Source: Candidatus Omnitrophota bacterium
Lineage (GTDB): Bacteria > Omnitrophota > Gorgyraeia > Duberdicusellales > 4484-171
Direction of reading: 5' to 3'
DNA: 56,936 nucleotides
Assembly: GCA_020352775.1 (NCBI GenBank)
Contig: CP070684.1
Span: 1,099,679-1,156,614 of the forward strand
Both the position numbers and the translations under genes were made by a program. Below the pieces are notes generated by a model, which was given only the letters and a program-made list of their open reading frames with translations, was not told the DNA's origin and did no database searches. Below, piece by piece: positions 4,986 through 43,178 of this stretch. How positions within the stretch are numbered: position 1 is the stretch's first letter; every line of letters starts with the position of its first letter.

Positions 4986-5507
4986 ATGAAGACTTATAAA
5001 ACGGAATTCAAAGGTTATCTGGATGATTTAGCTAAGAAAGCTCCTACTCCGGGAGGAGGAAGTGCGGTGTGTGTGGTATTTTGTATTGCCGTTTCTTTAA
5101 TGGAGATGGCGATACAATATTCTTTGGGTAAAAATAAGAAATTAAAAGAGCATTTAGGCCAGCTACAAAAATTAAAAAGAAAAGTGTATCCCTTTATAGA
5201 TCTTGATGGAAAGCTTTTTAATCAAATAATGAAATCAAAAGATAGCTCCCGGCAAAAGCTCCTCAAGAAGAGTGAGGAGCTCATTGTTGAGCTGGGGCGG
5301 GCGTGTTTAGGGCTTTTGTCTCTTGCCAAAAAGGCAGAATCTGGTATAAAAAAGAGTATAATCAGCGATTTTTACATCGGTTTAGGGCTTGGGAAAGTTG
5401 TATTGGCTGGCTGCATTTTTAATCTTGAGGCTAACAGCCGGATGTTTGGCTCTAAAAATAAATATATTAAGATCTTTAAAAAATCCTTAAAATCATGGCC
5501 GAAATAA
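4986..5507 (+). CDS. fchA: FchA-like methenyl-THF cyclohydrolase / cyclodeaminase family protein
   Basis: A 173-residue all-helical protein of the formiminotransferase-cyclodeaminase C-terminal family (FTCD_C). The hallmark is A-P-T-P-G-G-G-S-A near residues 18-26. Stand-alone members include FchA, the methenyl-tetrahydrofolate cyclohydrolase of methylotrophs and clostridia, and glutamate-pathway cyclodeaminases; sequence alone does not separate these. The neighbouring folD lacks its own cyclohydrolase lysine, which favours FchA. I start at ATG 4986, preceded by GAGGTGATT; a GTG at 4980 overlapping the rnhB stop is possible. The gene overlaps folD by 13 bases. Confidence 0.7.
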   Translation: MKTYKTEFKGYLDDLAKKAPTPGGGSAVCVVFCIAVSLMEMAIQYSLGKNKKLKEHLGQLQKLKRKVYPFIDLDGKLFNQIMKSKDSSRQKLLKKSEELIVELGRACLGLLSLAKKAESGIKKSIISDFYIGLGLGKVVLAGCIFNLEANSRMFGSKNKYIKIFKKSLKSWPK

Positions 5508-6328
5508 TAGCGGTAGATCAATTTTCTCAAGGATTGAAGGAAAGACTGCAAAAAGAGCGCAAGTCTCTGGGGAGTTTAAAGTTAGCCTCACTAAGTGTAG
5601 GGAATAATTTTGCCACCCAAAGCTATCTTTCCTCTCAGAAGAAATTAGCGCAGGAGCTCCAAATAGAGTATCTTTGCCTCACTTTAGGTGAGAATGCCAC
5701 TCAAGAAGAGGTTTTAAGCCAGATACAAAAACTTAATACTGATAAAGAAATTACCGGAATCATTTTAAATAAACCCTTTCCTGAATCCTGGCAGGAACAT
5801 GTGGTTTTAGCCGCGCTCTCATTTAAAAAAGATATCGAAGGAATGAGTCCTTATAATTTAGGCAGATTGTTACAGAAGGATCCCCTATTTGTTTCACCTA
5901 CTGCCCTGGCAGTTTTAGAATGTATTGACAAAAGTAAAGTCGACTTATACGGCAAGGAAGTAACCATTGTGGGTTTTTCAACCCTTATTGGGAAGCCTTT
6001 GAGTATTCTTTTAGCTGATAGATTTGCCACTGTCTGCATAACCCATATTGGGACATCACAGGCAGGAAATTTAGCTTCTCATCTAAAGAATGCTGACATT
6101 GTGATTTCTGCGGTAGGAAAGCCCAACCTTATTAAGGGTGATTGGATAAAAGAAGGTGCAATAGTCATAGATGTAGGAGTAGGCCAGATGAAAGGAAAAC
6201 TCGCAGGAGACGTGGAATTTGAGGTAGCGAAAAATAGAGCTTCTCTCATCACTCCTGTTCCCGGAGGAGTGGGTAAACTCACCACCCTGTTTCTTTTTTC
6301 TAACCTGCTTAAGGCAGCTCAATTATGA
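5495..6328 (+). CDS. folD: Methylene-THF dehydrogenase (FolD family), cyclohydrolase residues replaced
   Basis: A 277-residue FolD-family protein of normal length. Folate-binding and Rossmann elements are clear: K-D-I-E-G near 112-116, I-V-G-F-S-x-x-I-G-K-P at 158-168, and I-T-P-V-P-G-G-V-G near the end. By-eye gapless alignment with human MTHFD1 puts Gln48 where catalytic Lys56 should be (Y44-L-S-S-Q48), Asn92 at Gln100, and Glu115 at Asp125. Phe161 and Ile185 fall where Arg173 and Ser197 bind the NADP 2'-phosphate, hinting at NAD use. It is likely a dehydrogenase whose cyclohydrolase partner is the overlapping fchA-like gene. Confidence 0.85.
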   Translation: MAEIIAVDQFSQGLKERLQKERKSLGSLKLASLSVGNNFATQSYLSSQKKLAQELQIEYLCLTLGENATQEEVLSQIQKLNTDKEITGIILNKPFPESWQEHVVLAALSFKKDIEGMSPYNLGRLLQKDPLFVSPTALAVLECIDKSKVDLYGKEVTIVGFSTLIGKPLSILLADRFATVCITHIGTSQAGNLASHLKNADIVISAVGKPNLIKGDWIKEGAIVIDVGVGQMKGKLAGDVEFEVAKNRASLITPVPGGVGKLTTLFLFSNLLKAAQL

Positions 6329-6349: not shown

Positions 6350-7309
6350 ATGAAAGAGATTTTAGTAATCGGAGCCGGACCAGCAGCAATTACATTTCTT
6401 AACAGGATAATCGAAAAAAAAGCACAGTATAAGATTACGCTTGTTAACAAACTCCCCTATTCTTTTAATAAAAACGAATTGGTATCAAATTTAACATGTA
6501 AGAAAGAATTAGAATTGGAGAGTTGGGCACAATCTCATGGCATAGAGTTTATCGGTGATAGCGCAGAGCGCATAAATACTAAGCGCAGAAAAGTATATTT
6601 TAAGCAGAAGCCGGCGCGAGATTTTGAGACACTGGTGGTTGCCAGTGGAGCAAAATCTAAAAAAATAGAAGTTAAAGGTGAACACCGTGAGGGATTTTTC
6701 TATTTATCCGATATAGACCCCATGAAACTAAAAGACCTTTTAAGAATCAGCACCGAAGCGGTAATTGGAGTTTCGACAATTCTGGGGATAAGGCTTGCGT
6801 TGACCCTGGCCGCCCTAGAAAAAGAGGTAAGAATTATCACAGAGGATTTAGAGTTTCTTGAGTCGGCAAAAGAAAGATGTATAAACTTTTTGCAAAATAA
6901 AAATATCGCAGTGCATCTAAATTCATCTATTGAGGAAGCAATTGGAGAGGGTGCGGTTAAAGCGACAAAGATAAACCCCTTCAAAGTATTTTCTTCGCAT
7001 CTGGTTTTTATTGATAGCGGATTTATTCCTAACCGAGGGTTCTTTGAAGATGAGCTCGGAGCACATGATACATTTTTTACCGCTGCCAAAGACGTATATC
7101 TTTTAGGAGATGTAACCAGGTCTGATTTGGAAAGTGAATTCTTTTTCCCTTTTAATTACCAGGAGGCAGCTTCACAAGGTGTGATCCTAGCTGATTTTAT
7201 TTTGGAGGGGAAACCCCCTGTCTTTGAAAGAAGATCAGCTGGCGAGGAAGACAGGCAGAAAATCATCGAAGATATCTTTAAGGCAAGAGAAGCCGCTGAA
7301 AGTCTTTAA
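6350..7309 (+). CDS. FAD-dependent pyridine nucleotide-disulfide-oxidoreductase-like protein
   Basis: A 319-residue flavoprotein. The N-terminus has the FAD-binding G-A-G-P-A-A motif (residues 8-13), then T-L-V-x-x-x-x near residue 30, the L-V-V-A-S-G-A segment near 92-98, and a late Y-L-L-G-D-V motif that binds the FAD ribityl phosphate. The NAD half is weak: G-V-S-T-I-L-G-I replaces the usual G-x-G-x-x-G. No redox-active C-x4-C is visible, so it resembles nitrite- or rubredoxin-reductase-like members. It lies 21 bases after folD, so it may act with the C1 genes; that is inference only. Confidence 0.65.
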   Translation: MKEILVIGAGPAAITFLNRIIEKKAQYKITLVNKLPYSFNKNELVSNLTCKKELELESWAQSHGIEFIGDSAERINTKRRKVYFKQKPARDFETLVVASGAKSKKIEVKGEHREGFFYLSDIDPMKLKDLLRISTEAVIGVSTILGIRLALTLAALEKEVRIITEDLEFLESAKERCINFLQNKNIAVHLNSSIEEAIGEGAVKATKINPFKVFSSHLVFIDSGFIPNRGFFEDELGAHDTFFTAAKDVYLLGDVTRSDLESEFFFPFNYQEAASQGVILADFILEGKPPVFERRSAGEEDRQKIIEDIFKAREAAESL

Positions 7310-26103: not shown

Positions 26104-28305
26104 ATGAAAACAGAAAAAACAAATAAAGAATTAGCCCAAGAAGTGGGATTAAACTCCTCTGAATATGAGAAAATAAAGGAATTATTAAAGAGAGAGCCCA
26201 ATTATACAGAATTAGGAATGTTCTCTGCGATGTGGTCTGAGCACTGTTCCTACAAGAATTCGAAAAAAGTATTGAGGCTTCTGCCGAAGGAAGGAAAGAA
26301 AGTTTTTGTTGGGGTGGGAGAAAATTCCGGAGCGGTTTCTGTTAGCGATGATTACGCCGTGGTTTTTAAAATAGAATCCCACAATCATCCTTCAGCAATC
26401 GAACCATATGAAGCGAGTGCCACCGGCGGCGGGGGTTGCATCAGGGATATTTTCACTATGGGTGCGCAGCCTTTATTCCTTTTAAGTTCCTTGCGGTTCG
26501 GACTTATGGATGATGAAAGAACAAAATTTCTTTTTAAAGAGGTAGGACGGGGTTTTACCGATTACGCCAATGAAGTAGGCCTTCCGGCCTTGGCGGGCGA
26601 AGTATATTTTGATGATTCTTATCAGGGAAACCCCCTGGTTAATGCGATGGTCGTGGGTTTGCTTAAGAAAGAAGATTTAATAAAAGCAAGAGCTGAGGGC
26701 GTAGGGAGTCTGGTTATTATCGCCGGCGGCCCCACCGGAAGAGACGGGGTTGAGGGAGCGAGTTTTGCTTCTGCCGGTTTGGATGAGAGCGCGCTTGAGA
26801 AAAAGTCCGCAGTTGCAATAGGGGATCCGAAAATAGGAAAAATATTAAGAGAGGCGTGTCTGGAGCTTGCAGAAAAAAAGCTGATTGTGGGAATGCAGGA
26901 TATGGGAGCAGCGGGCCTGGTATGCTCTACTTCAGAAACAGCGTATAAAGCAGGTACCGGCATTGAGATAGATATCGCCTCGGTACCGCGGAAAGAAGAA
27001 GGGATGATTCCCTATGAGATTATGCTTTCGGAGTCTCAGGAAAGAATGCTTTTGATCGTAACGCCCCAAAACTTCGATAAGGTAAAAGATATACTCAATA
27101 AGTGGAAGGTTGACTTTAGCCTGATCGGTAATGTTACTGATGATGGAATATTGAGAGTAAAAGAGAATGGAAATGTTGTGGCAGAGGTTCCTGCCCGATT
27201 TTTAACCGAAGCTCCTGAATACAAGCGCGAGGTAAAAGAACCAAAGTATTTAGAGCAGACGCAAAAATTAGATTTAAAGGAAGTAAAAGAGCCTCAAGAT
27301 TATAACCAGGTGCTTCTTAAGCTGCTCAGCCACCCGACCTTAGCCTCTAAAGAGTGGATTGCAAAAAAGGTTAATCCCACTCTGACCAAGGATTCCTGCC
27401 TTCCTTTGGGCAATGACGCAGGGGTCTATTGTGTCTCACAGATTAATAAAGCAATCGCCGCCACCGCAGATGGAAACGGGCTCTATTGCTACCTTAATCC
27501 TTTTTTGGGAGGAGAAATTGCTGTAGCTGAAGCAGCAAGGAATCTTGTTTGTTGCGGGGCAGAGCCTTTGGGTATTACTGACGGCCTTAATTTCGGCGAT
27601 CCCTATAACCCTGAAATTTACTGGCAATTTGAAAGGGTAGTTTCGGGTATCAGCGAGGCATGTAAATTCTTTGATATTCCTGTGGTAAGCGGAAACGTAA
27701 GCTTTAACAATGAGAATCCCCGCGGCGCAATCTATCCCACCCCCATAATCGGTATGGTAGGAGTGGTTGATGATGTAAAGAGAGTAACCAGCTGTGATTT
27801 CAAAAATGAAGGAGATTTAATCTTTTTGCTCGGGGAAAATAAAGAAGAGCTGGGTGGTTCACAATATTTAAATATCATCCATAAGATGAAAAAAGGAAAT
27901 CCGCCAGGCCTTGACTTACAACAAGAAAGAAATGTTCAGGGGGCAGCTTTGGAGATGATAAAAGAAGGGTTAGTGGCAAGCGCCCATGATTGTTCAGAGG
28001 GTGGGTTAGCCCTGGCATTGGCGGAGTGTTGTATTTTGGGGAAATCAGGGGCAATTATAAATCTTTCAGAGAGCATGCGAGACGATGCTCTACTTTTTGG
28101 CGAGACTCAGTCAAGGATTATTGTGAGTGCCTCTTCCCAAAACAGAGGAAAAATTGAGCAGATTTGTAAAAAGCTTAACGTCAAATTTAATCTCATCGGC
28201 GAAGTGAAAGGAGATTCTTTAAAGATAAATGAGCGTATCAATGTAAAGGTGGATGATTTATCCAAGACTCATAAACAAGCTATTCCTAAAATAGTAGAGG
28301 GTTAG
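26104..28305 (+). CDS. purL: Phosphoribosylformylglycinamidine synthase subunit PurL (small type)
   Basis: A 733-residue PurL of the small type, which makes FGAM from FGAR using ammonia delivered by separate PurQ and PurS. Motifs: M-W-S-E-H-C-S-Y-K-N-S near residue 42, K-I-E-S-H-N-H-P-S near 91, A-T-G-G-G-G-C-I-R-D, and the second-half G-N-D-A-G and D-G-N-G. The glutaminase domain of the long PurL is absent, and neither purQ nor purS is in this operon. The ATG follows AAGGAGG. Confidence 0.95.
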   Translation: MKTEKTNKELAQEVGLNSSEYEKIKELLKREPNYTELGMFSAMWSEHCSYKNSKKVLRLLPKEGKKVFVGVGENSGAVSVSDDYAVVFKIESHNHPSAIEPYEASATGGGGCIRDIFTMGAQPLFLLSSLRFGLMDDERTKFLFKEVGRGFTDYANEVGLPALAGEVYFDDSYQGNPLVNAMVVGLLKKEDLIKARAEGVGSLVIIAGGPTGRDGVEGASFASAGLDESALEKKSAVAIGDPKIGKILREACLELAEKKLIVGMQDMGAAGLVCSTSETAYKAGTGIEIDIASVPRKEEGMIPYEIMLSESQERMLLIVTPQNFDKVKDILNKWKVDFSLIGNVTDDGILRVKENGNVVAEVPARFLTEAPEYKREVKEPKYLEQTQKLDLKEVKEPQDYNQVLLKLLSHPTLASKEWIAKKVNPTLTKDSCLPLGNDAGVYCVSQINKAIAATADGNGLYCYLNPFLGGEIAVAEAARNLVCCGAEPLGITDGLNFGDPYNPEIYWQFERVVSGISEACKFFDIPVVSGNVSFNNENPRGAIYPTPIIGMVGVVDDVKRVTSCDFKNEGDLIFLLGENKEELGGSQYLNIIHKMKKGNPPGLDLQQERNVQGAALEMIKEGLVASAHDCSEGGLALALAECCILGKSGAIINLSESMRDDALLFGETQSRIIVSASSQNRGKIEQICKKLNVKFNLIGEVKGDSLKINERINVKVDDLSKTHKQAIPKIVEG

Positions 28306-33619: not shown

Positions 33620-34065
33620 AAATAGCTTTAGCTGCTGACCATCGGGGATTTAAATTGAAAAACTTTCTGACAGAGTTCTTAAAGGCAAAAGGGCATGAGG
33701 TTATGGACTTCGGTACTCACTCTAGTGAACCCTGTGATTATCCAGATTATGTCTATCCGGCCGCAGTTGCAGTGAGGGAGAAAAAAGCTGACCGTGCAAT
33801 CGCAATCTGTTATACTGGAATAGGAAGCTCGATTGTGGCAAATAAAGTACGGGGAGTAAGGGCTGCGCTAGTACATGATGTAAAAAGCACGCGCTTAACC
33901 CGAAAGCATAATAACAGCAATGTGCTGGTTTTAGCTGCTGATGGCTTAAAAGAGGAGAGTGTAAAACGCCTAGTTTCAACGTGGTTAAAAACCGAGTTTG
34001 AAGGCGGCAGGCACCTGCGACGTATAAAGAAAATACAGGAAATAGAGGAGAAGGAAAATGTTTAA
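33616..34065 (+). CDS. rpiB: Ribose-5-phosphate isomerase B
   Basis: A 149-residue RpiB/LacAB family enzyme interconverting ribulose- and ribose-5-phosphate. The N-terminus [10 protein letters not shown] and D-F-G-T-H-S near 37 bind substrate; the Cys-loop reads C-Y-T-G-I-G, and N-N-S-N-V-L follows later. I start at ATG 33616, which overlaps the preceding stop (ATGA) and has AGGGAG upstream; an in-frame GTG at 33610 is the alternative. It overlaps glyA by eight bases. Confidence 0.94.
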
Positions 34066-35302
34066 GGCATTAAAAAATAGTGATCCCCAGGTTTATGCGG
34101 CAGTAATGAATGAGCTAGAGCGTCAGCGTGCCCATATTGAGTTAATTGCCAGTGAAAACTTTGCTCCGTTAGAGGTACTGGAAGCGCAGGGCTCAGTGTT
34201 AACCAATAAGTATGCAGAAGGTTATCCCAAAGCGCGCTGGTATGGGGGTTGTGAGTTTGTGGATGATGCCGAAGACCTAGCGCGTGATAGGGTAAAGAAG
34301 TTATTCGGGGCTGAGTTTGCCAATGTGCAGCCCCATTCTGGTACGCAGGCAAACATGGCGGTAATGATGGCAGTGTTAAAGCCGGGTGATACGATTTTAG
34401 CCATGGACCTTGCCTGTGGAGGACATCTCTCGCATGGACATCCATTAAATTTCAGTGGCCGGTTTTATAATATTGTTGCTTACGGAGTAAATAAAGAGAC
34501 CGAGTGTATTGATTTTAATGAGGTAGAGCATCTTGCCCTGACCCATAAGCCTAAGATGATCATTGCCGGAGCAAGTGCTTATCCGCGCATTATTGATTCT
34601 AAGAAGTTCAGGGAAATCGCGGATAAGGTCGGAGCATATTTGTTGGTTGATATGGCGCATTTTGCAGGGTTAGTAGCAGCTAAAATACACCCTAATCCTT
34701 GCAGGGATGCTCATTTTGTGACTTCTACTACCCATAAGACTTTGCGCGGTCCCAGAGCAGGATTTATTCTTTGTAAGGAAGAATTCGGTAAAAAGATAAA
34801 TACTGCGGTTTTTCCTGGAACTCAAGGGGGGCCGCTAATGCATGTTATTGCTGCTAAGGCTGTTGCGTTTGGGCTGGCATTAAAGCCTGAATTTGTAGCA
34901 TATCAGAAGCAGGTTGCGGCTAATGCTAAGTATTTTGCCCAGTGTATGGAGAAAAGGGGTTATAGGATTGTAAGCGGTGGTACTGATAATCATTTGTTTC
35001 TGGTGGATTTAGCTCCCAAAGATATTACCGGTAAAGAAACCTCTAGTCTTTTGGAAAGTGCTAATATTACAGTAAATAAAAACCTTATTCCATTTGATCC
35101 TAAACCGCCGGTGGTTACCAGTGGGATTCGTATTGGAAGTCCAGCAGTGACTACCCGTGGGATGGAAGAAAAGGAGATGGATAAAATTAGTGAGCTAATT
35201 GATGAAGTTATTACGCACCGCGAGGATGAAAGCGTAATTGATGTGGTGCGCAAAGAAGTTGAGAAGTTAACCAAGAAATTCCCCTTATACCAAGGGCTGT
35301 AA
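34058..35302 (+). CDS. glyA: Serine hydroxymethyltransferase
   Basis: A 414-residue PLP-dependent SHMT making glycine and methylene-THF from serine. Motifs: I-E-L-I-A-S-E-N-F near residue 27, [26 protein letters not shown] and the PLP lysine in [11 protein letters not shown]. It supplies the C1 units used by FolD, PanB and purine synthesis in this window. The stop overlaps the next start (TAATG). Confidence 0.97.
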
Positions 35303-41174: not shown

Positions 41175-43178
41175 TTATTTCGCTTGCCTAAATAGCTTAT
41201 TTAGTTCTTTTAAGGCGTCTTTTACCGCGCGATCTTTGTTAACTTTAGTTTGCCGGGCAAATTTCTCAATGGCATTTATTTTGTCGCTCAGTACTTTAGT
41301 GACGTCTTTTTTCTGTTGTCTGGAATAGCTCTTTTTATTTCTTTCCAGCATCGCTATTTCTGGTTTAAGGTTACTGATGTCAGCTAACACTTTAGCTTTG
41401 TTGCTGGCAAAGGCTATTGCTTCCTGTCTTTCTTGTTCAGCTTTTTGGGCTTCTTTCCTGGCTTTTTCAGCTTGTCTTTCAGCTTCTTTGCGCGCCTGGC
41501 GCTCAGCCTTTTTAGCTTCTTTCTCGGCTTGCTTGCGTTCTTTTTCCAATTCCTTCTGTCTCTTTTTTTCTTCTTTTTCAGCTTGGCGGGCAAGCTTTCT
41601 TTCCTGCCGGGTTTCTAATCGATCGTGTTTCGCCAGACGCCTTTCTTCTATTTTTTTTGCTCTCTCAGGGCTTTTTTCACTTACACGTTCAAGGCGCTTA
41701 GCCCGGCGAACATCCTTGGTCTCCTGCCGCACATCTTTGCGCAGCTGTTTCATTTCTTCTCGTTCTTCTTTTTTAGGCTGTCTCTTTGCTTCTCTTTCTG
41801 CCTTCTGTTTCGCTCGCCATTCTTCCCTTACTTTCCTTACTGCCGCAGGGCCTTCTTTCCTTGCTTTCTTTAGCTTAGACTTATAGCTGGACCTTGCTAT
41901 TCGTTTGTCGATAGATTCGCTCAATTGCTCATGATCATAATACCCAGTTTTCTTGTATTCTTTCCTGCTGATGCGCGCAATTTTCTTATCAGCTCTTTTC
42001 TCTAACAGTTCAGCTTTTTTCAACCGGCCCTCTCGGCGTAATTCTTCACTCTTTATTTCTTGCTCTTTCTTTATCCATTTTTGTTTCTTTTCCGGAGAAA
42101 GGTGGCGGTAGTATATTTTAGCTGGGATACCAAACCCTGAAAGATCCTCGTAACTTACGTGCTTGTCTGCGAGCTTATCGGCTTTTAAATCAATTTTGGC
42201 TGCGCGTTCAGGGTCTTTTTTGCGCAGGCGTTCGGCTTTCTCGCGTAGCCTTTTAACTTTATCGCCAAGCGCCGCGGTTCTTTTCTGTTTATAGCTCATG
42301 TCCTTTCTTTCTTCTCTCCTGGCCTTGCGCTCTTCTTTCTTTTCCTGCCGGGCTTCTTTTCGTTCTGCTCTCCTGGCCTGGCGTTCTGCCTTCTTTTTTG
42401 CTCTTATTTTTTTTATCGTTTGGATAAGGACCTTAAAGTCATTCTTGATATTTCGGAAGGTATTTTTTGCTGTGGTGCTCAGGAGGTTCCATTGCTTTTT
42501 GTATTCTTGCTGAGTTTTGTTAAATAAATTACTGAGAAGATCTATTTCTTTTTGCAGGGCTTCTTCTGCTTCCTCGGTTACGGCATTGGTTAAGTCAATT
42601 TGTTTTGACCGTAGCTGTTGAAGGATATTATACATTTTGTTAAGGTGTTCGGGTTGCTGCGTTATTGGTTGCCTTTTCTCTCGGGCGCTCAGCCGCCTCT
42701 CTTGTCTGGCAGCCCTGCGCTGGGCCCTTTTTTGTTTTCTTCTTTCTATTCTTTGTTTTATCCTGGCTATTTGTTGGGCTCTTAGTTCAGCCAGTTTTCT
42801 TATATGATTCCTAAGAAATTGCATAAAAGGGGAATCGGCGAATTTTTTTGCTATTACTTGTGCGTGCTTGACAATTCTCTTTTCAAGTGCGGTGGTTAGC
42901 CGTTCTACTTCGTCCTTTAATTGCTCTATTTGCTTTTCTGCGCGCTCTGCATCTGCACCGGTTAGTTTAATTAATCCTTTCTCTAATTTTAGTATTTGGT
43001 TTATTAAGCTAAGAATTTCTTTCTTATCCTGTCTTATTTTCTTGCGTATTGACATTTCATTCGGTACTTTCTTCTGTGCAAGGACATTACCAGGCGTACC
43101 GAAAATGAAACTAAAAGATACTACAAACGTAATAATTAAACTAAGGAGCTTGTTTTGTTTTAGATCACAGTTTCTCAT
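41175..43178 (-). CDS. Secreted, highly charged helical (coiled-coil/single-alpha-helix) protein
   Basis: A 667-residue protein I cannot assign. A hydrophobic signal (about residues 10-35, then V-L-A-Q) is followed by nearly 600 residues of Lys/Arg/Glu/Ala/Gln-rich sequence with long runs like E-E-R-K-A-R-R-E-E-R-K and E-K-E-A-K-K-A-E-R-Q. Such spacing of opposite charges favours coiled coil or a stable single alpha helix. Less charged islands occur near residues 290-370 (an L-S-P-E-K-K-Q-K-W segment) and at the C-terminus. It may be an envelope spacer or filament. A strong AAGGAGG precedes the ATG; recG converges on it with a 14-base gap. Confidence 0.75.
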   Translation of the reverse strand: MRNCDLKQNKLLSLIITFVVSFSFIFGTPGNVLAQKKVPNEMSIRKKIRQDKKEILSLINQILKLEKGLIKLTGADAERAEKQIEQLKDEVERLTTALEKRIVKHAQVIAKKFADSPFMQFLRNHIRKLAELRAQQIARIKQRIERRKQKRAQRRAARQERRLSAREKRQPITQQPEHLNKMYNILQQLRSKQIDLTNAVTEEAEEALQKEIDLLSNLFNKTQQEYKKQWNLLSTTAKNTFRNIKNDFKVLIQTIKKIRAKKKAERQARRAERKEARQEKKEERKARREERKDMSYKQKRTAALGDKVKRLREKAERLRKKDPERAAKIDLKADKLADKHVSYEDLSGFGIPAKIYYRHLSPEKKQKWIKKEQEIKSEELRREGRLKKAELLEKRADKKIARISRKEYKKTGYYDHEQLSESIDKRIARSSYKSKLKKARKEGPAAVRKVREEWRAKQKAEREAKRQPKKEEREEMKQLRKDVRQETKDVRRAKRLERVSEKSPERAKKIEERRLAKHDRLETRQERKLARQAEKEEKKRQKELEKERKQAEKEAKKAERQARKEAERQAEKARKEAQKAEQERQEAIAFASNKAKVLADISNLKPEIAMLERNKKSYSRQQKKDVTKVLSDKINAIEKFARQTKVNKDRAVKDALKELNKLFRQAK

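Follow-up and report, generated by a model that had tools for sequence, protein, structure and literature searches.

The window, a 56,936-nucleotide stretch of a Candidatus Omnitrophota genome, carries on its plus strand rnhB, a gene of the FTCD_C family, folD and an FAD/NAD-type oxidoreductase gene in this order, with glyA and purine genes elsewhere within it (Table 1). The overlap of folD with an FchA-type gene, claimed in the original prediction, is present in the reading frames as given. In the family genomes examined these genes belong to a conserved block, trmD-rplS-rnhB-fchA-folD-redox-guaB-guaA. The flavoprotein encoded after folD has a degenerate second Rossmann glycine motif and no conserved pair of cysteines. 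Between folD and the flavoprotein gene, some family members carry a divergent MTHFR-like gene similar to the PRK08645 reductase portion; despite this gene beside folD in relatives, the window's own genome encodes a standard metF elsewhere. A 667-aa reading frame on the minus strand (41175-43178) gave no match in the Pfam scan.

Table 1. Features of the fchA-folD locus, related genes of the window and the MTHFR-like genes of its relatives
Feature	Position	Strand	Remarks
fchA-like gene	4986..5507	+	173 aa from ATG 4986; FTCD_C family (PF04961)
folD	5495..6328	+	277 aa; PF00763 and PF02882 over cut-off
fchA/folD overlap	5495..5507	+	13 nt
Gln48 codon CAG	5636..5638	+	position of E. coli Lys54 / human Lys56
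Asn92 codon AAT	5768..5770	+	position of E. coli Gln98 / human Gln100
Glu115 codon GAA	5837..5839	+	position of E. coli Asp121 / human Asp125
Pyr_redox_2 FAD/NAD-type oxidoreductase	6350..7309	+	directly 3' of folD; folD neighbour throughout the window's family
purL-like purine biosynthesis gene	26104..28305	+	PF18072, PF00586, PF02769; pathway shared with 10-formyl-THF consumers
glyA (serine hydroxymethyltransferase)	34058..35302	+	PF00464, E=2.3e-164; methylene-THF source
Divergent MTHFR-like gene	L072 4840-5691; L073 6381-7247; matching genes in L074 and L076		PF02219; in relatives of the window

Membership of the downstream protein in the FolD family is supported by both of its domains (PF00763, 77 bits; PF02882, 183 bits) and by a fold model with a mean pLDDT of 94.6, whose top matches are the E. 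coli FolD structures 5o28 and 5o2a (E=1.3e-30). With the bifunctional E. coli enzyme (1b0a, 5o28) it shares fold, domain composition, 38% identity and the active-site tyrosine (Tyr44; Tyr50 in E. coli, Tyr52 in human), but it differs in the residues expected of a bifunctional FolD and in being accompanied by a separate FchA. Alignment with 1b0a and with human MTHFD1 places Gln48 at the catalytic lysine and Asn92 and Glu115 at the conserved glutamine and aspartate; the assignment, originally made by eye, thus survives careful alignment, which does not restore Lys56. The possibility that a second, canonical folD makes this one a paralogue was rejected: no other PF02882 gene was found in the single-contig 1.275-Mb genome (completeness estimate 84.6%), and the window FolD is its sole FolD.

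The roles of these positions are known from characterised homologues. In human MTHFD1, Lys56 and Gln100 act in catalysis and Asp125 in pterin binding (PMC3368264, PMC6443876). In E. coli FolD, K54N renders cyclohydrolase activity undetectable and leaves about 19% of dehydrogenase activity, Q98H retains about 1% and 8% of the two, respectively, and deletion of K54R55 abolishes the cyclohydrolase (PMC5688156). Loss of the lysine together with the Asp-to-Glu exchange is therefore predicted to have removed the cyclohydrolase first while the dehydrogenase was kept.

The overlapping upstream gene is predicted to encode a stand-alone methenyl-THF cyclohydrolase. Its product scores 79.4 bits with PF04961 against a cut-off of 24.5 (E=3.7e-22) and has the conserved residues and fold of the FTCD_C family, while with the NCBIfam FchA equivalog NF045657 it reaches 47.7 bits against a cut-off of 275. 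With a five-sequence profile including named relatives, the top hit was Methylobacterium extorquens FchA (7vg4; E=4.3e-37), followed by T. maritima TM1560; the fold model, at a pLDDT of 84, has 7vg4 and 1o5h as its closest structures (TM ~0.7). Family and fold are thus those of M. extorquens FchA, but identity to it is only ~23% and the window protein is ~40 residues shorter. Its counterparts in the window's family share the short C-terminus, and in them the Gly-Asn motif preceding the conserved Asp has been lost. These features, with the low scores, would suit a scenario in which the FolD cyclohydrolase was lost, the divergent FchA decayed as well and methenyl-THF hydrolyses spontaneously, the process to which the viability of E. 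coli mutants without cyclohydrolase has been attributed (PMC5688156). Such decay is nevertheless very improbable. FchA occurs in every family genome checked and stays beside folD; G24, G25, D74, D128 and N150 are each present in at least 30 of 31 family members, and D74, D128, N146 and N150 in 31/31, whereas an unselected gene would be expected to vanish from genomes of 1-2 Mb. The family FchA looks divergent yet maintained.

The same FolD type extends across Candidatus Omnitrophota. Among 237 sampled genomes of the phylum, FolD is present in 232 and FTCD_C in 223, and 144 distinct FolDs were read from their loci. All 144 have Gln at the Lys56 position, an invariance by which Gln48 is not due to chance or sequencing error, and 143 have Glu at position 125. 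At position 100, 88 have Gln and the others N, H, T, S, M, E, P, Y, L or A; in the window's family the counts there are 23 N, 8 H and 1 T, and most other members of the phylum have Gln. A search for lysine-type FolDs in the phylum with E. coli FolD as query yielded, among the best loci read, Gln-type sequences only. The closest named GTDB relatives, mostly Candidatus Omnitrophota, have the same FolD residues and the same fchA neighbour, and fall among the FolD sequences of the phylum in the tree. Since Gln and Glu are nearly invariant across the 144 proteins, they look like the ancestral, fixed state of the phylum, while Asn92 looks like a later change specific to the lineage of the window's family.

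A same-strand fchA precedes folD in 141 of the 144 cases, with the two frames overlapping or lying within 60 nt of each other in 135 of these 141 pairs. Two of the loci where fchA was unseen (L174 and L035) end ~200 nt upstream of folD; in the third (L163), 2.3 kb upstream of folD are free of fchA, and no FTCD_C was found in its 72%-complete genome. The companion gene fhs is present in 33 of 72 good genomes of the phylum, in many directly upstream of fchA-folD, and the order fhs-fchA-folD matches that of A. woodii (PMC6925170).

Strict conservation of the replacement residues also invites a different reading, namely that FolD is still bifunctional, with Gln and Glu forming an alternative cyclohydrolase site, and that its FTCD_C neighbour belongs to another pathway as a formimino-THF cyclodeaminase. 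The FTCD_C family does include cyclodeaminases (1o5h is so annotated, and 1tt9 is bifunctional), and Gln/Glu are conserved in the phylum as strictly as Lys/Asp elsewhere and are therefore under selection. Against this stand the loss of E. coli cyclohydrolase in K54N and the K54R55 deletion (PMC5688156), the drift of position 100 to ten other residues, which would be expected if the cyclohydrolase site were relaxed, the characterised FchA as best profile match and the A. woodii-like gene order (PMC6925170). Retained bifunctionality thus appears very improbable, and a division of labour, with FolD acting as dehydrogenase and FchA as cyclohydrolase, is very probably what the locus encodes. This split had been the simplest reading in the original prediction, and the residues, their co-occurrence with FTCD_C and the behaviour of E. 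coli K54N all argue for it.

The predicted coupling of lysine loss to fchA holds in the phylum, where the genes adjoin in nearly all cases, as well as in a mixed named sample and in Clostridia. Among 80 named FolD loci, 73 are of the lysine type, none of them (0/73) with fchA nearby. When whole genomes were searched for FTCD_C in 40 genomes of this mixed sample, it was found in 6/7 with lysine-less FolD versus 0/33 with the lysine type; the six, all Gln+Glu, comprise four Omnitrophota, an Aerophobetes and a Planctomycetota. A Binatia FolD (L193) has Met for the lysine, keeps the Asp and comes from a genome without FTCD_C, possibly a lysine-less FolD without FchA. Clostridia were chosen by the presence (38) or absence (12) of FTCD_C, and FolD is lysine-less in 37/38 positive versus 0/12 negative genomes; counted by FolD type in this sample, 12/13 lysine-type genomes are without FTCD_C and 37/37 lysine-less ones have it. 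In Clostridia the lysine is replaced by Ala, Ile, Val, Leu or Gln, and position 100 is mostly occupied by Phe, Leu or Met; in many of the lysine-less Clostridia FTCD_C does not adjoin folD. One Clostridia exception (G466, L334) has a lysine-type FolD and, at a separate site in the genome, an FTCD_C gene.

Outside the phylum, FTCD_C accordingly accompanies 43/44 lysine-less FolDs versus 1/46 with the lysine. The corresponding Fisher p of 3e-23, computed over 90 rows outside the main Omnitrophota set (four named Omnitrophota included), overstates independence. On the tree the lysine state has to change at least twice, once in a group of Omnitrophota, Aerophobetes, Planctomycetota and Binatia and once in Clostridia, and because two events suffice, the Fisher p-values are not independent evidence. 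A test with phylogenetically independent pairs had only 1-2 pairs and no power. The independent weight of the cross-phylum association is thus small and resides in these at least two changes; lysine loss is a convergence, reached with different replacement residues.

The window's family is set apart by its folate context, as fhs was found in 0/37 of its genomes. The window's own genome encodes PurN, PurU, Fmt and the standard metF. PurU, a formyl-THF deformylase, lies at L267 1237-2088 despite the missing Fhs; its presence fits a flow of formyl-THF from methylene-THF. An acetogen-like, mainly reductive operation of the pair, from formate to methylene-THF, is suggested by the resemblance of the cluster to the Wood-Ljungdahl type fhs-fchA-folD arrangement, but it is hardly credible where Fhs is absent, leaving no formate activation by a known route, and where PurN, PurU and Fmt, all of which consume formyl-THF, are encoded. 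Lack of Fhs would therefore mean that 10-formyl-THF is made from methylene-THF, that the pair works oxidatively and that FchA is the only enzymatic cyclohydrolase. We infer that in this Fhs-less family FchA is also the only enzymatic source of 10-formyl-THF, the main caveat being spontaneous hydrolysis.

Taken together, these observations make it highly likely that the locus encodes a split FolD/FchA system, probably derived from a Wood-Ljungdahl cluster and, with fhs lost, running in the oxidative, biosynthetic direction. FolD would oxidise 5,10-methylene-THF to 5,10-methenyl-THF and, without the catalytic lysine, would no longer hydrolyse it; FchA, encoded by the overlapping gene, would then convert methenyl-THF to 10-formyl-THF. 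The pair probably goes back to a methyl-branch cluster of the Wood-Ljungdahl pathway, fhs-fchA-folD, that much of the phylum still has, and with fhs lost in the window's family it would run oxidatively for biosynthesis. Carbon would pass from serine via GlyA to methylene-THF and on to 10-formyl-THF, which PurN, Fmt and PurU would use.

A split of this kind is already known from A. woodii, C. formicoaceticum and C. perfringens. In 2016 Aluri reportedly found the C. perfringens FolD to be a dehydrogenase only, with FchA as the cyclohydrolase; the window's version of this division is a predicted one, and C. perfringens, unlike the window's family, has Fhs. FchA and FolD are reported as separate proteins in both A. 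woodii and C. formicoaceticum, those of A. woodii as monofunctional (PMC9124964). The A. woodii cluster reads fhs1-fchA-folD-rnfC2-metVF, with fchA at 1082745-1083404 (PMC6925170); its locus was recognised here by these coordinates (G389:C1:1082796-1083335). As in A. woodii, fchA in the window lies directly upstream of folD, and both FolDs are without Lys56 and Gln100. The A. woodii enzyme (L299), however, has Ile and Phe at positions 56 and 100 and keeps the Asp, its cluster includes fhs and metVF, and it serves acetogenesis. The window's genome combines a FolD without the catalytic lysine with an FTCD_C protein, as such split pairs do, and is without the companion Fhs, which is usual but not strictly defining. 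Yeast MTD1 (1edz) is eukaryotic and remote from the window FolD (E=3.4e-7 over 172 residues), and to our knowledge it has no FchA partner. It is a monofunctional NAD-dependent dehydrogenase of the FolD family, judging by titles cited in PMC11064299.

Cofactor use is less clear. Loss of the human NADP contacts Arg173 and Ser197 had been taken as a hint of NAD instead of NADP, and the loss itself is seen in the alignment, where Phe161 and Ile185 occupy these positions (mostly His/Ile across the phylum, Arg/Ser in a few). The hint is only suggestive: the missing Arg173 alone is not decisive, because the NADP-specific E. coli enzyme is also without it, having Ala/Arg, while A. woodii FolD, which is NAD-specific according to work cited in PMC7793690, has Asn/Val. 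That the window FolD prefers NAD is a guess, about as likely to be right as wrong.

What is new here is that the Gln+Glu signature occurs throughout the phylum and has persisted in a family that has no Fhs; no description of this phylum-wide form without Fhs was found in the searchable literature. It seems moderately likely, on a broader view, that lysine loss marks the split FolD/FchA system across bacteria, having arisen at least twice with different replacements, become fixed in the whole of Omnitrophota and, in the window's family, outlived the loss of Fhs, after which a divergent, shortened FchA would be essential there as the one enzyme supplying 10-formyl-THF. For the window FolD, the 25 NCBIfam families listed are without exception described as dehydrogenase/cyclohydrolase, and such bifunctional annotation is probably wrong for FolDs of the whole phylum and of many Clostridia; reading the lysine residue together with the presence of FTCD_C offers a simple rule for correction. 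Carolacton is anchored by the lysine of E. coli FolD, and K54N is insensitive to it (PMC5688156); because the anchoring lysine is missing, the FolDs of the phylum are predicted to be naturally insensitive to this inhibitor. In the sampled Fhs-less Omnitrophota genomes, FchA rather than FolD is predicted to be the essential cyclohydrolase.
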